Below are positions 29,819-51,628 of a DNA stretch of 64,000 bases, piece after piece. The stretch is from Sorex araneus (taxonomy: Eukaryota; Chordata; Mammalia; Eulipotyphla; Soricidae), in NCBI RefSeq assembly GCF_027595985.1, contig NC_073304.1, forward strand, positions 213,496,500-213,560,499, read 5' to 3'. How positions within the stretch are numbered: the stretch's first letter is position 1; each line of letters starts with the position of its first letter. The position numbers and the translations under genes are program-made. Under the pieces are notes generated by a model, which was not told where the DNA came from, ran no database searches, and worked only from the letters and a program-made list of their open reading frames with translations.

Positions 29819-29981
29819 TGGGGGGAAGGTCACACCTGGTGATGCACAGGGGTTACTCCTGGCTTTGCACTCAGGAATTACTCCTGGCAGTGCTCAGGGG
29901 ACCATATGGGATGCTGGGAATCAAACCCGGGTTGGCCGCCTGCAAGGCAAACGCCCTACCCGCTGTGCTATTGCTCCAGCC
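29819..29981 (-). mobile_element. Full-length SOR-type SINE
   Basis: Exact duplication CCCTCACTCAGTTTTTT at 29802-29818 and 29982-29998. Confidence 0.95.
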
Positions 29982-30037
29982 CCCTCACTCAGTTTTTTAA
30001 TGTATATACCCACTTAATGCATTCTGGCCCCATTTTA

Positions 30038-31143
30038 TTTTTATTTATTTATTTATTTATTTTTATTGAGTCACTGTGAAAACAGTTACAGGGCTTTCAG
30101 AATCAAGTCTCAGTCATACAATGATCGTTTGATTGTAACGATCCCTTCACCAGTGCACATGTTCCACCATCAGGAACCCCAGCAAACCCCCCTTTCCACT
30201 GCCCCCCTGCCTGTGTGGAAGATGATTTTCACTTTACTCTCTCTTTACTTTGATTACATTCAGTTTTCGACAGAAACCCACGATTATTATTTGGAGTCCA
30301 GCCCCCCGCCCAACAATTAGACCTGTCGAAATGGCATCATTAGATCATATGTTTTCTATTGCTGATAACAAAGAGCATGTGATGTTGCATGGTTGTGAAA
30401 GTGGCCCCCCAGTTTCGGGATTCTGGTATTTTAGTAATTAAGTCCAGAGGTATTTCTGCCAGCAGCTGCTGCATTCCGACATTGGTGGCTGTTCAGGAGC
30501 CGAGGAACTGTTTATGGGCGGCCACTTGGGGTCACATTTGGGCGGGGAGCAGGGCCGGTTCTGCCCCCCACAACGCTAGATTCCCCGTGCACCCCATCAC
30601 TGCAAGCTCCTACCTCTCTGTCCAATTGGCTCTGAAAGGTGATGGTCGCCATACTGCCGCCAAGGGGAAAAGGCCGAGGGACAAACACCCTTCCCCTCCT
30701 GGGGCTGCACGGGGCAGGAGCTTAGTTCACAGTTGTGGAGTACATCTGCGAGCAGCCACTGCGTCCCGAGATTGGTTTCTGTGCCTCTGGGATAGTGGCT
30801 GCTCCGGGGTGGCGGAGCCGTTCCTGAGCGGCTTTTTGTATATTAGGTAAGGTCAGTTTGGAGAAATAGTCCCAGTCCCACATGTTAGCAGAAGCTAGTG
30901 TTGCCGGGACTCCATCTGGAGAAGGTGGGGTGACTGCACCTTCTCCGTCTGGCACCCCGGTGTTGTTTGCCCAGTCTGGGGTCCAGAGCATTCTCCGGAT
31001 TGTGATGCCCGCTGGTCCGGGTTCTGCCTCCCAGTTCCAGTGCCCCCACACGGTTTGGAGAAATTGTCCCAGTCCCACATACCGGAGCCATGTTAGTAGA
31101 AGCTCAGTGTCCCCGGGACTCCATCTGGAGAAGGCGGGGTGGC
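30038..31143 (-). mobile_element. 1.1-kb composite retroelement: tandem 5' monomers plus L1-like 3' end
   Basis: Bounded by an exact 16-bp duplication TTCTGGCCCCATTTTA (30022-30037 and 31144-31159), so it is one insertion. Read on the minus strand it starts with about 1.5 tandem monomers of about 210 bp (each with GATGGAGTCCCGG, CTTCTRCTAACATG and TGTGGGACTGGGAC). A unique middle of about 600 bp follows, then an L1-3'UTR-like end (CAxTGTATGACTGAGACTTG, TTCACAGTGACTCAATAAAAA) and a (TAAA)n tail. I see no reverse transcriptase or other long ORF. It could be a non-autonomous L1-dependent family or an internally deleted L1. Confidence 0.8.
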
Positions 31144-31354
31144 TTCTGGCCCCATTTTACAAAAGAGAGATACATAGAAAGTATTCAACTGTGTCAATTG
31201 TAGCAGTGAAAATTCTAACAGGGGTGTCTGAAGAGTCTGAGTAAAGGGAGGTTTGCTTGTTCTTTTTATATTATTACCCTGTCAGAAAATACATATTGTT
31301 ACAAAGTAAAATGGTATTTCTTGTGAAGAATTAAGGTTAAAAATAAGTTCAGGG

Positions 31355-34711: not shown

Positions 34712-35304
34712 AAAAAAGAGTTTTCTGAACCCCGTCTCTGCCTGTACTAACGCGCTTGGCTCTGCAGGAGGCAGTGTCTGAGGAGCGGGTGGGCACTGAT
34801 CCCACGTCTGTCTAACCCCAGTGTGAAGGCCTCACCGGTCCATTAGTCTGAGGGGCGTCAGGCACACTCCCCGCCCCGCTTTCTCAGGGAGAATCTGAGA
34901 ATGATGCTGACAGTTTGCTCTCCAGCTGACTAGTTCTTGGCCTAGTTCTCCAGTGGCCCCTGCACATATGTGGGGGAAAGAGGATATCAATTTTGGTGTT
35001 TTTTTTTTTTTGGTTGTTCTGTTTTTGTTTAGTTTTTACTGATCTATCAATGCTGTCTCCAGGAGGTACCAAGTTACCTTTTACGAGAGGTGGACGGGTT
35101 CCTGCCTGGGTCTTCCTTGAGAGTCATTTGGGCTCAGTGTTCCAGGGCAATCAAAGAAAACTGACAGCACACAGCAGGAAGTGATCATCCCGGCAGGGAG
35201 TGATCCCAGCAGGAAGTGATCATTTCAGACCTCCAGCTGCCTAGGGCAATGGGAGACGGCAGGAGTCCGAGGATCCCCGGATCCAGCTCCATGGATGGTT
35301 GTTG

Positions 35305-35715
35305 TTTTTTTTTAATTTTTTATTGGAGAATCACTGTGATGTACAGTTACAAATTTGTGAACTTTTGTGTTTGCATTTCACTCAACAGTGATCATTTACC
35401 CATCCCTCCACCAGTGCCCATTCATCTCCACCAACGATCCCAGTATCCCTCTCAACACCCCTGCCCTATCCCCCACCACCCCACTTCACCTCTGCAGCAG
35501 GGCATTCCCTTTTGTTCTCTCTCCTTTGGGGTGTTGTAGTTTTTAATAGAGGTATTGAGTGGCCTTCATGTTCAGTCTATAGTCTATTTTTAGTTTGCTT
35601 TTTCCAACCCAAATATGTCCTCCCAACATCCTCTACTTGGTGTTCCCTTCTCTATCTGAACTGCCTTTCCCCCCAGCATGAGGCTGGTTTCTAAGCTGTG
35701 GGGCAGACCTATTTT
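35305..35715 (-). mobile_element. L1 3' end
   Basis: Reverse complement of the 51150-51545 L1 3' UTR: TTATTGGAGAATCACTGTGATGT at the tail, then CACCAGTGCCCATTC, and GAGGCTGGTTTCTAAGC near 35690. Confidence 0.88.
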
Positions 35716-36140
35716 TTTATATTTTATATATTATTTTATATATTATTATATTTATATTATTTTATATATATTATATTTATATGCCTTGCCTTGCCATGTT
35801 TGTAGAAGCTCATGGTCTCCTGGGGTTCTATCTGGAGAAGGCAGGGAGACTGCACATGCTCCATCTGGGGCAACCTGGTGTTATCGGCTTGGTTTGGGGT
35901 CTGGATGCGGTGCCCACCGGCCAGGATTCTTCACTGCTGATGGCACCAGGGGCGGGTTGAGGGCGTGACTCCTGGGGGCAGGGGCAGGCTGGAAGCTGGC
36001 ATGCAGCTTCCCAGTTCCAGTGCCCCCATGCAGTCTGGAGAAACAGTCCTGGTCCCCACATACGGAGCCATGTGAGTAGAATCTCAGGGTCACCGGGATT
36101 CCATTTGGAGAAGGCGGGGAGACTGCACCTTCTCCGCCTG
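35716..36140 (-). mobile_element. Second copy of the composite-element 5' monomers
   Basis: After an AT-rich stretch (35716-35785), two diverged monomers match those at 30850-31143: TATCTGGAGAAGGCAGGGAG, CAGTTCCAGTGCCCCCATGC, CACATACGGAGCCATGT. It lies directly upstream, in element sense, of the L1 3' end at 35305-35715. Confidence 0.75.
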
Positions 36141-36145
36141 TCAGT

Positions 36146-49383: not shown

Positions 49384-49914
49384 AGTATCATGCTAAGTGA
49401 AATGAGTCAGAAAGAGAGGGACAGACTAGAGGGACTGCATTCATTTGTGGAGTATAGAATAACATCACATGAGTCTGACACTCAAGGACAGTAGATACGA
49501 GGGCCAGGGGGATTGCCCCATAGCTGGAAGACTGCTTCATGAGCGGAGGGGAGAAGGCAGATGGAATAGAGAAGGGATCACTAAGAAAATGATGGCTGGA
49601 GTAACCAGTTGGGATGGGAGATGCATGCCGAAAGTAGATAATGGACCAAACATGATGACCTCTCAGTGTCTGTGTTGCAAGTCATAATGCCCAAAAATAG
49701 AGAGAGAGTATGGGGAATATTGTCTGCCATAGAAGCAGGGAGAGGGTGGGAAAGGGGGGGTATACCCGGGATATTGGTGGTGGGGAATGTGCACTGGTGG
49801 AGGGATGGGATTTGGTTATTATGAGATTGTAACCCAAACATGAAAGCTTGTAACTATCTCACGGTGATTCAATAACATTATAAAATAAATAAATAAATAA
49901 ATAAATAAATTTTT
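49384..49914 (+). mobile_element. 5'-truncated L1 (3' UTR only)
   Basis: Begins AGTATCATGCTAAGTGAAATG, ends TCACGGTGATTCAATAACAT with an (AAAT)n tail. Exact 16-bp duplication AAATGCTCCAGTGAGG at 49368-49383 and 49915-49930. Confidence 0.94.
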
Positions 49915-50082: not shown

Positions 50083-51545
50083 TTGCCAAGCAAGTGAAAA
50101 CAGAGATAAACAAATGGGACTACCTTAAACTAAGACGCTTCTGCACCTCAAAAGAAACAGTGACCAAAATACAAAAACAGTCTACAGAATGGGAAAAGAT
50201 ATTCATCCAATACCCATCTGATAAGGGGTTGATATCAAGGATATACAAAGCACTGGCTGAACTCTACAGGAAGAAAACTCCCAACCCCATCAAAAAATGG
50301 GGAATGGAAATGAACAGAAATTTTTCTCAAAGAAGAAATCCGAATGGCAAAGAGACACATGAGAAAATGCTCTATGTCACTAATCATCAGGGAGATTCAG
50401 ATTAAAACAATGAGATATCATTTCACACCACAGAGACTGGCCCACATCCAAAAGAACAAAAGCAACCGGTGTTGGCGTGGATGTGGGGAGAAAGGGACTC
50501 TCCTACACTGCTGGTGGGAATGCCGACTGGTTCAGCCCTTTTGGAAAACAATATGGATGTTTCTCAAAAAATTAGAAACTGAGCTCCCATTTGACCCAGC
50601 AATACCACTCCTGGGAATATATCCTGGAGAGGCAAAAAGGCATAGTAGAAATGACATCTGCATTTGTATGTTCATTGCAGCACTGTTTACAATAGCCAAA
50701 ATCTGGAAAAAAACAGAGTGCCCAAAAACAGATGACTGGTTAAAGAAATTTTGGTACATCTACACAATGGAATACTATGCAGCTGTTAGAAAAGATGAAG
50801 TCATGAAATTTGCATATAAGTGAATCAACATGGAAAGTATCATGTTAAGTGAAATGAGTCAGAAAGAGAGACATAGAAAGATTGCACTCATCTGTGGAAT
50901 ATTAAATAACAGAGTGGGAGACTAACACCCAAGAGTTGTAGAAATAAGGATCCGGGGGCTGGTGTGATAGCACAGCGGGTAGGGCGTTTGCCTTGCACGG
51001 CGGCCGACCCGGGTTCGAATCCCAGCATCCCATATGGTCCCCTGAGCACCGCCAGGAGTAATTCCTGAGTGCAGAGCCAGGAGTAACCCCTGTGCATCGC
51101 CAGGTGTGACCCAAAAAGCAAAAAAAAAAAAAAAAAGGATCAGAAGGTCTGCCCCACAGCTTGGAAACTGGCCTCACATGCTTGGGGAAAAGGCAGCTCA
51201 GATAGAGAAGGGAACATCAAGTAGAGGATGTTGGGAGGACCCATTTGGGTTGGAAGATTCGAACTAAAAGTAGACTATAGACCGGACATGAAGGCCACTC
51301 AACACCTCTATTGCAAACTACAGCACCCAGAAGGAGAGAGAACAAAAGGGAATGCCCTGCTGCAGAGGCAGGGTGGGGTGGTGGGGGATGGGGTGGGGGT
51401 TGTGAGAAGGATACTGGGATCATTGGTGGAGGAGAATGGGCACTGGTGGAGGGATGGGTAAACGATCACTGTATGAGTGAAATGCAAACACAAAAGTTCA
51501 TAAGTTTGTAACTGTACATCACAGTGATTCACTAATAAAAAAAAT
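50083..51545 (+). mobile_element. 5'-truncated L1: end of ORF2, 3' UTR and tail, broken by a SINE
   Basis: Open frames show L1 ORF2 C-terminal hallmarks: [58 protein letters not shown] and YTMEYYAAV. At least one frameshift near 50345 separates the first and second frames, so it is dead. 3' UTR 50823-51545, interrupted at 50953-51134. Weak flanking match GTCTAGTGTACT and GTCTAGCATACT. Confidence 0.94.
50953..51134 (+). mobile_element. Full-length SOR-type SINE nested in L1
   Basis: Subtype A; short duplication AAGGATC at 50946-50952 and 51135-51141. One inserted G in CACGGCGGCC. Confidence 0.94.
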
Positions 51546-51628
51546 TTTTAAATGTCTAGCATACTCAAAACTGATAGTCTAAAATCTAGTGTGATTATAA
51601 CTCTGTTATATAAATCCACTTTTCTTTT

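Follow-up and report, generated by a model that had tools for sequence, protein, structure and literature searches.

The window analysed here, a stretch of 64,000 nucleotides from the Sorex araneus genome, holds on its minus strand a composite element of exactly 1106 bp (30038–31143). It is flanked by an exact 16-bp target duplication, TTCTGGCCCCATTTTA, at 30022–30037 and 31144–31159; both copies were found where the first-pass annotation had seen them, and the whole unit lies between them. Read in its own sense, the element opens with an upstream monomer and an incomplete second one; then come the middle, the L1-type 3' end, the AATAAA and the (TAAA)n tail. The parts, together with a second group of monomer fragments in the window, are as follows:

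31144..31159, no strand: target-site duplication, 5' side in element sense; 16 bp, exact, duplication score 13.2
30929..31143, minus strand: upstream monomer and a few bases of the preceding one; monomer positions 1–112 and 199–295, the 86 bp between them missing
30854..30928, minus strand: last monomer, 3'-partial (positions 1–87), abutting the body
30621..30853, minus strand: 5' body, homologous to the 5' region of sister family B
30596..30620, minus strand: start of the L1 3' UTR homology by alignment; in L1, about 10 bases past the ORF2 stop
30476..30595, minus strand: insert, present neither in family B nor in L1; aligns to the 5' end of family B (partial core duplication)
30062..30475, minus strand: remaining L1 3' UTR, closing with AATAAA (30062–30067)
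30038..30061, minus strand: (TAAA)n tail, A-rich, running down from the AATAAA
30022..30037, no strand: target-site duplication, 3' side in element sense; 16 bp, exact
35793..36142, minus strand: fragments of monomers like those above, with no body; 85% over 115 bp, no composite copy

The five open frames of the window copy matched no Pfam family at E ≤ 1, which speaks against a protein-coding middle and agrees with the earlier description of this part as non-coding. The Rfam collection includes models of tRNA, 7SL and 5S RNA, and a search of 29900–31250 on both strands gave no match at E ≤ 0.5, by which a SINE head or a structured RNA was ruled out as well. When the element was compared with itself only the monomer repeat was seen, while the comparison across copies revealed an internal repeat of about 85 bp.

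A dispersed family with target duplications

The element belongs to a dispersed family, here called family A, in which whole units have target duplications and some copies are truncated at the 5' end. The search covered the 2.4-Gb genome of the window species, and the loci described are the best-scoring matches, not a random sample. With the whole unit as query, 40 of 9,504 candidates were scored, and 39 places beyond the window copy matched at least 740 of the 1,106 bases at 77–84% identity. After four duplicate fetches had been removed the locus set comprised 74 distinct loci, and the chain of monomer, body and tail is present in 63 of them, the window copy and 62 others. The remaining 11 consist of five loci that begin within the body and six that are broken, incomplete or monomer-only.

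Searches with single parts of the element, a fairer test than the whole unit, gave the same picture among their best matches. For the monomer, 30 of 40 places were fetched, giving 29 non-window loci; the body follows the monomers in 28 of these and the tail is reached in 25, the exceptions being L021, L028 and L035, with body only, and L030, with monomer only. The tail alone led to seven non-window loci, all with the middle and five with monomers. Two loci from this search, L042 and L043, start within the body and have a duplication at that start, and look as 5'-truncated insertions do. Three other family A copies (L018, L019 and L034) are without the body between the two internal repeats (reference positions 220 to 428–465), a gap as expected from recombination or template jumping between the repeats, and they possibly form a subfamily. 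A diagnostic 27-mer from the body, with up to three mismatches allowed, has 1,835 matches genome-wide and none for its reversed control; since the word is present in 55 of the 74 loci, the region appears to be preserved in some two thousand copies or more.

To test for duplications, the sequence found at the 5' boundary was set against the one that follows the tail. This covered 68 of the 74 loci; in the other six the chain was broken or the 3' end missing. A score of at least 8 was reached by 32 of the 68 copies as compared to 24 of 1,020 flank-swapped pairs, and a score of at least 11 by 16 copies as compared to one pair; 36 of the 68 had no duplication above the threshold. Among the 32 duplications the median length is 14 bp, and A makes up 66% of the first four positions. 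The L1 endonuclease has a matching base preference, which this A-richness fits, with the reservation that the start of a duplication may be blurred by an A-rich tail. One copy, L006, sits in what on reading appears to be L1 ORF2 sequence, with the duplication on each side. Thus, dispersed copies with L1-type duplications and an A-rich tail are found in family A. The mean K2P distance of 58 copies to the column majority was 0.090, or 0.067 without CpG sites, and the window copy was at 0.080 without CpG; these distances imply that the family is not a recent one.

The first-pass annotation had left two options, a non-autonomous family built on an L1 3' end or an L1 with a monomeric 5' UTR and deleted ORFs. 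The recurrence of the unit, with the same junction in many copies that have duplications of their own, supports the first, and neither the unit nor its monomer-to-tail order is unique to this locus.

Monomers and the 5' UTRs of shrew L1s

The monomer period of family A is about 295 bp. Monomer starts are 292–299 bp apart in 16 of 25 cases, and three of the other nine belong to the window copy, where the spacing of 209 bp results from the lack of monomer positions 113–198. The first-pass annotation, which counted about 1.5 tandem monomers of about 210 bp, was correct about the tandem 5' units, but the period that it gave reflects this 86-bp deletion. The copies contain from part of one unit up to about 2.4 units. 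A monomer-only fragment of about 280 bp was also observed (L030:1473–1753), which has a near-exact 18-bp duplication (one mismatch) and is without an A-rich tail.

Of the 29 duplication-backed 5' starts, 12 fall at monomer positions 174–213, a cluster that depends on BLAST boundaries and was equalled in 47 of 5,000 random sets. Another nine fall at positions 1–6, and this group may be partly an artefact, because the reference monomer was cut there. A CCATCTTG word at position 175, which we take to resemble a YY1 site, is retained in 28 of 35 monomers; the intervals around it lie at the 61st to 89th percentile of monomer conservation, and the word is no better conserved than much of the monomer. 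The cluster of starts may be taken as a hint, no more, that transcription starts within the monomer.

The tandem monomers at the 5' end are reminiscent of L1, and the 3' part of the element is L1 3' UTR from about 10 bases after the ORF2 stop. It is therefore conceivable that family A is the 5' UTR of an L1 subfamily, comprising the monomers and the middle, which was joined to the 3' UTR after the loss of ORF1 and ORF2 and spread by means of L1 proteins in trans. Both young L1 lineages that were sampled do have such arrays: L079, which lies at C1:181.99 Mb and has an intact ORF1 frame of 351 aa, and L111, a long copy of the L1 lineage that matches the tail, carry tandem GC-rich monomers spaced 143 and 146 bp apart, and these are different from those of family A. 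A GGGGCGTGGCC-type stretch before ORF1 is common to the two (L079:1612–2277, L111:921–1497), while their monomer sequences differ from each other.

The 5' UTR sample, taken directly before ORF1, consisted of L079, L111 and L082–L086, the last five with shorter ORF1 frames than L079. L111 came from 20 non-self plus-strand junction matches probed at the expected start of ORF1, of which four had ORF1 and one was read; an eighth stretch, L081, is an inverted L1 without a 5' UTR and stands outside the count of seven. Neither the monomers nor the middle were found in any of the seven 5' UTRs, a small sample. What did match in their vicinity was, upstream of the 5' UTR of L084, a family B copy in antisense and, in the flank of L079, an older L1 3' end; all other matches were short, with E values of 0.1 or more. 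Descent from the L1 at C1:181.99 Mb itself was rejected, its 5' UTR being unmatched and BLAST aligning just 43 bp of its 3' UTR (81%) to a piece of the tail. Furthermore, the monomers run into the body in all but one of the 29 monomer-search loci, none of which matched the ORF1 N-terminus (probe from one young L1), and family B has the middle and the tail yet no monomers. An origin of family A by deletion within an L1, the second option of the first-pass annotation, is for these reasons unlikely, though an unsampled or extinct L1 may have been the source.

The L1-derived 3' end and sister family B

Judged by alignment, the 3' end of the element is homologous to the L1 3' UTR, and the body is shared with family B, a second piece of it aligning to the 5' end of B. 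The L1-derived part begins at about element base 524, and bases ~524–548 and ~669–1080 align to the L1 3' UTR, about 440 bp that are split by the insert at ~549–668. The first-pass annotation had described a tail like the L1 3' UTR with (TAAA)n; the likeness and the (TAAA)n were confirmed, but the extent had to be redrawn. One locus, L072, holds an L1 insertion with the end of ORF2 and, behind it, a 3' UTR whose alignment with the element covers bases 675–1060. When its ORF2/3' UTR junction was used as query, all 40 scored matches were full-length, itself and 39 others at 98%, which implies that this L1 represents a real and young lineage and rules out that it is an old subfamily. To one L1 copy of this lineage, the tails of ten A copies are on average 73% identical and those of five B copies 85%. 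The L1 3' ends in L072, in L080 and in the window at 49384–49906 and 50798–51546 have a common ORF2 end and share the last 100–170 bp variably, and the 3' UTR between the shared parts differs, so that replacement of the 3' UTR seems to be common in this L1 lineage.

Family B was discovered through the antisense copy in L084. In the B search the scored places other than the query copy start close together, 34 of the 39 at query positions 218–235 and the rest at 201–268, and from this bunching it follows that the 5' end of the family is a defined one, without monomers. The four copies read, L087–L090, are about 650 bp long, with a 5' region of about 230 bp followed by L1 3' UTR, and target duplications were readable in two of them, L087 and L090. 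A word typical of B has 1,465 matches in the genome, and its reversed control has none. Families A and B thus have the 5' region of the body and the L1 3' UTR in common, but B is shorter and has no internal duplication.

The middle of A is homologous to the 5' region of B (BLAST up to E 7e-24), with an identity of 60% as compared to 77% for the L1-derived tails. The tails are closer than the 5' parts, as if the L1 end were constrained or had been renewed from L1. The insert could be tested in three of nine A copies, six being without the anchor words; in all three it aligns to the 5' end of B, and none of 200 shuffles scores as well. The simplest reading would be that family A grew from a B-like core through partial duplication, and that the monomers were gained later, probably not from the L1 5' UTRs that were sampled but from elsewhere. 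The reverse order, A before B, is also possible, since the B copies that were read, few and selected, are not more divergent than the A copies.

Mobilisation, relatives and meaning

Taken together, we regard the unit, with a probability of about 0.85, as an old copy of a non-autonomous composite family mobilised by L1, with monomers of about 295 bp, a modular body, an L1 3' UTR and an A-rich tail. RNA polymerase II would start within the monomers, the transcript would be polyadenylated at AATAAA, and target-primed reverse transcription by L1 proteins would insert it elsewhere in the genome, a step in which the L1 3' UTR possibly helps. Duplications of L1 type and an A-rich tail would also be expected of an ordinary SINE or a processed pseudogene with an L1-like end, composite in looks only. 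This is highly improbable, as a SINE has a pol III head from tRNA, 7SL or 5S RNA, for which the window copy gave no Rfam match; the element is moreover longer than 1 kb, its tandem 5' units vary in number, its L1 3' UTR homology lies well upstream of the tail, and no coding frame was recognised.

That separate insertions came to lie side by side by chance, as does occur at 35300–36142, is hardly credible for the composite element, because the unit recurs in the same order at 62 other loci and a single exact duplication surrounds the whole of it. At 35300–36142 a TA-rich stretch (35711–35792) lies between the monomer fragments and an L1 3' end that is a repeat in its own right, of another subfamily. 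With this region as query, the 39 further places that were scored, one of them in the window at 51145–51542, all start at positions 430–438, past both the TA-rich stretch and the monomers, and none spans the junction between monomer and L1. The second copy of the monomers, which the first-pass annotation placed beside an L1 3' end at 35305–36140, is thereby ruled out as part of a further full unit; the monomers there merely adjoin an L1 end.

The VNTR composite retrotransposons (SVA, LAVA, PVA and FVA) are described as hominoid-specific (PMC4432496). Family A is similar to them in being a non-coding composite with tandem repeats, an A-rich tail, L1-type target duplications and, apparently, a stepwise assembly from older parts, and L1 mobilisation in trans, a property of the SVA group, would apply to family A too. 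The parts themselves are different. Where SVA has (CCCTCT)n hexamers at the 5' end, the window element starts in a monomer of the 295-bp type; the Alu-like, 7SL-derived region of SVA has no counterpart here as far as compared via Rfam; the GC-rich VNTR of SVA is central and built of 35–50-bp units, whereas the tandem units of family A stand at the 5' end; and the 3' part is a retrovirus-derived SINE-R in SVA but aligns to the L1 3' UTR in family A. The label SVA-like given to the element earlier is thus apt for how it works but not as a statement of membership.

HAL1, described along with SVA, is also a non-autonomous derivative tied to L1, which arose several times in mammals and encodes ORF1p (PMC5753468), a coding region that the five frames of the window copy do not resemble in the Pfam search. 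In the mouse L1 5' UTR, tandem monomers thought to carry the promoter are followed by a non-repeated stretch, the tether (PMC9022269). Family A has the same succession of tandem units and non-repeated stretch, but in the mouse the monomers precede ORF1 of an autonomous L1, while here the array enters a non-coding body. An L1 deletion derivative should have L1 3' UTR as its 3' part, as family A does, and L1 5' UTR as its 5' part, for which the sampled L1s gave no match. Among the literature matches listed, no such shrew family appeared in titles or in the beginnings of abstracts; the main text of PMC13174262, which treats LINE-1 chimeras, does not contain the word shrew, and PMC1764860 mentions elephant shrews and shrew tenrec, not Sorex, in the part consulted. 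Family A may already bear a name in Repbase or Dfam.

It is about an even chance that families A and B constitute a modular system parasitic on L1 and independent of the hominoid SVA, in which a B core would have been duplicated in part and would have captured promoter-like monomers of non-L1 origin to give A, both families spreading to one or two thousand copies or more. Composite elements that depend on L1 are best known from the hominoid SVA and its relatives. An unrelated second series, in which one family (B) is simpler and the other has its core duplicated in part and a 5' array added, would be a testbed for what such an element needs: a 3' end of L1 type, a tandem array that carries a promoter, or the two together. 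The contrast with two young L1 lineages of the same genome, each with monomers of its own, would also allow one to ask where 5' promoter arrays come from.
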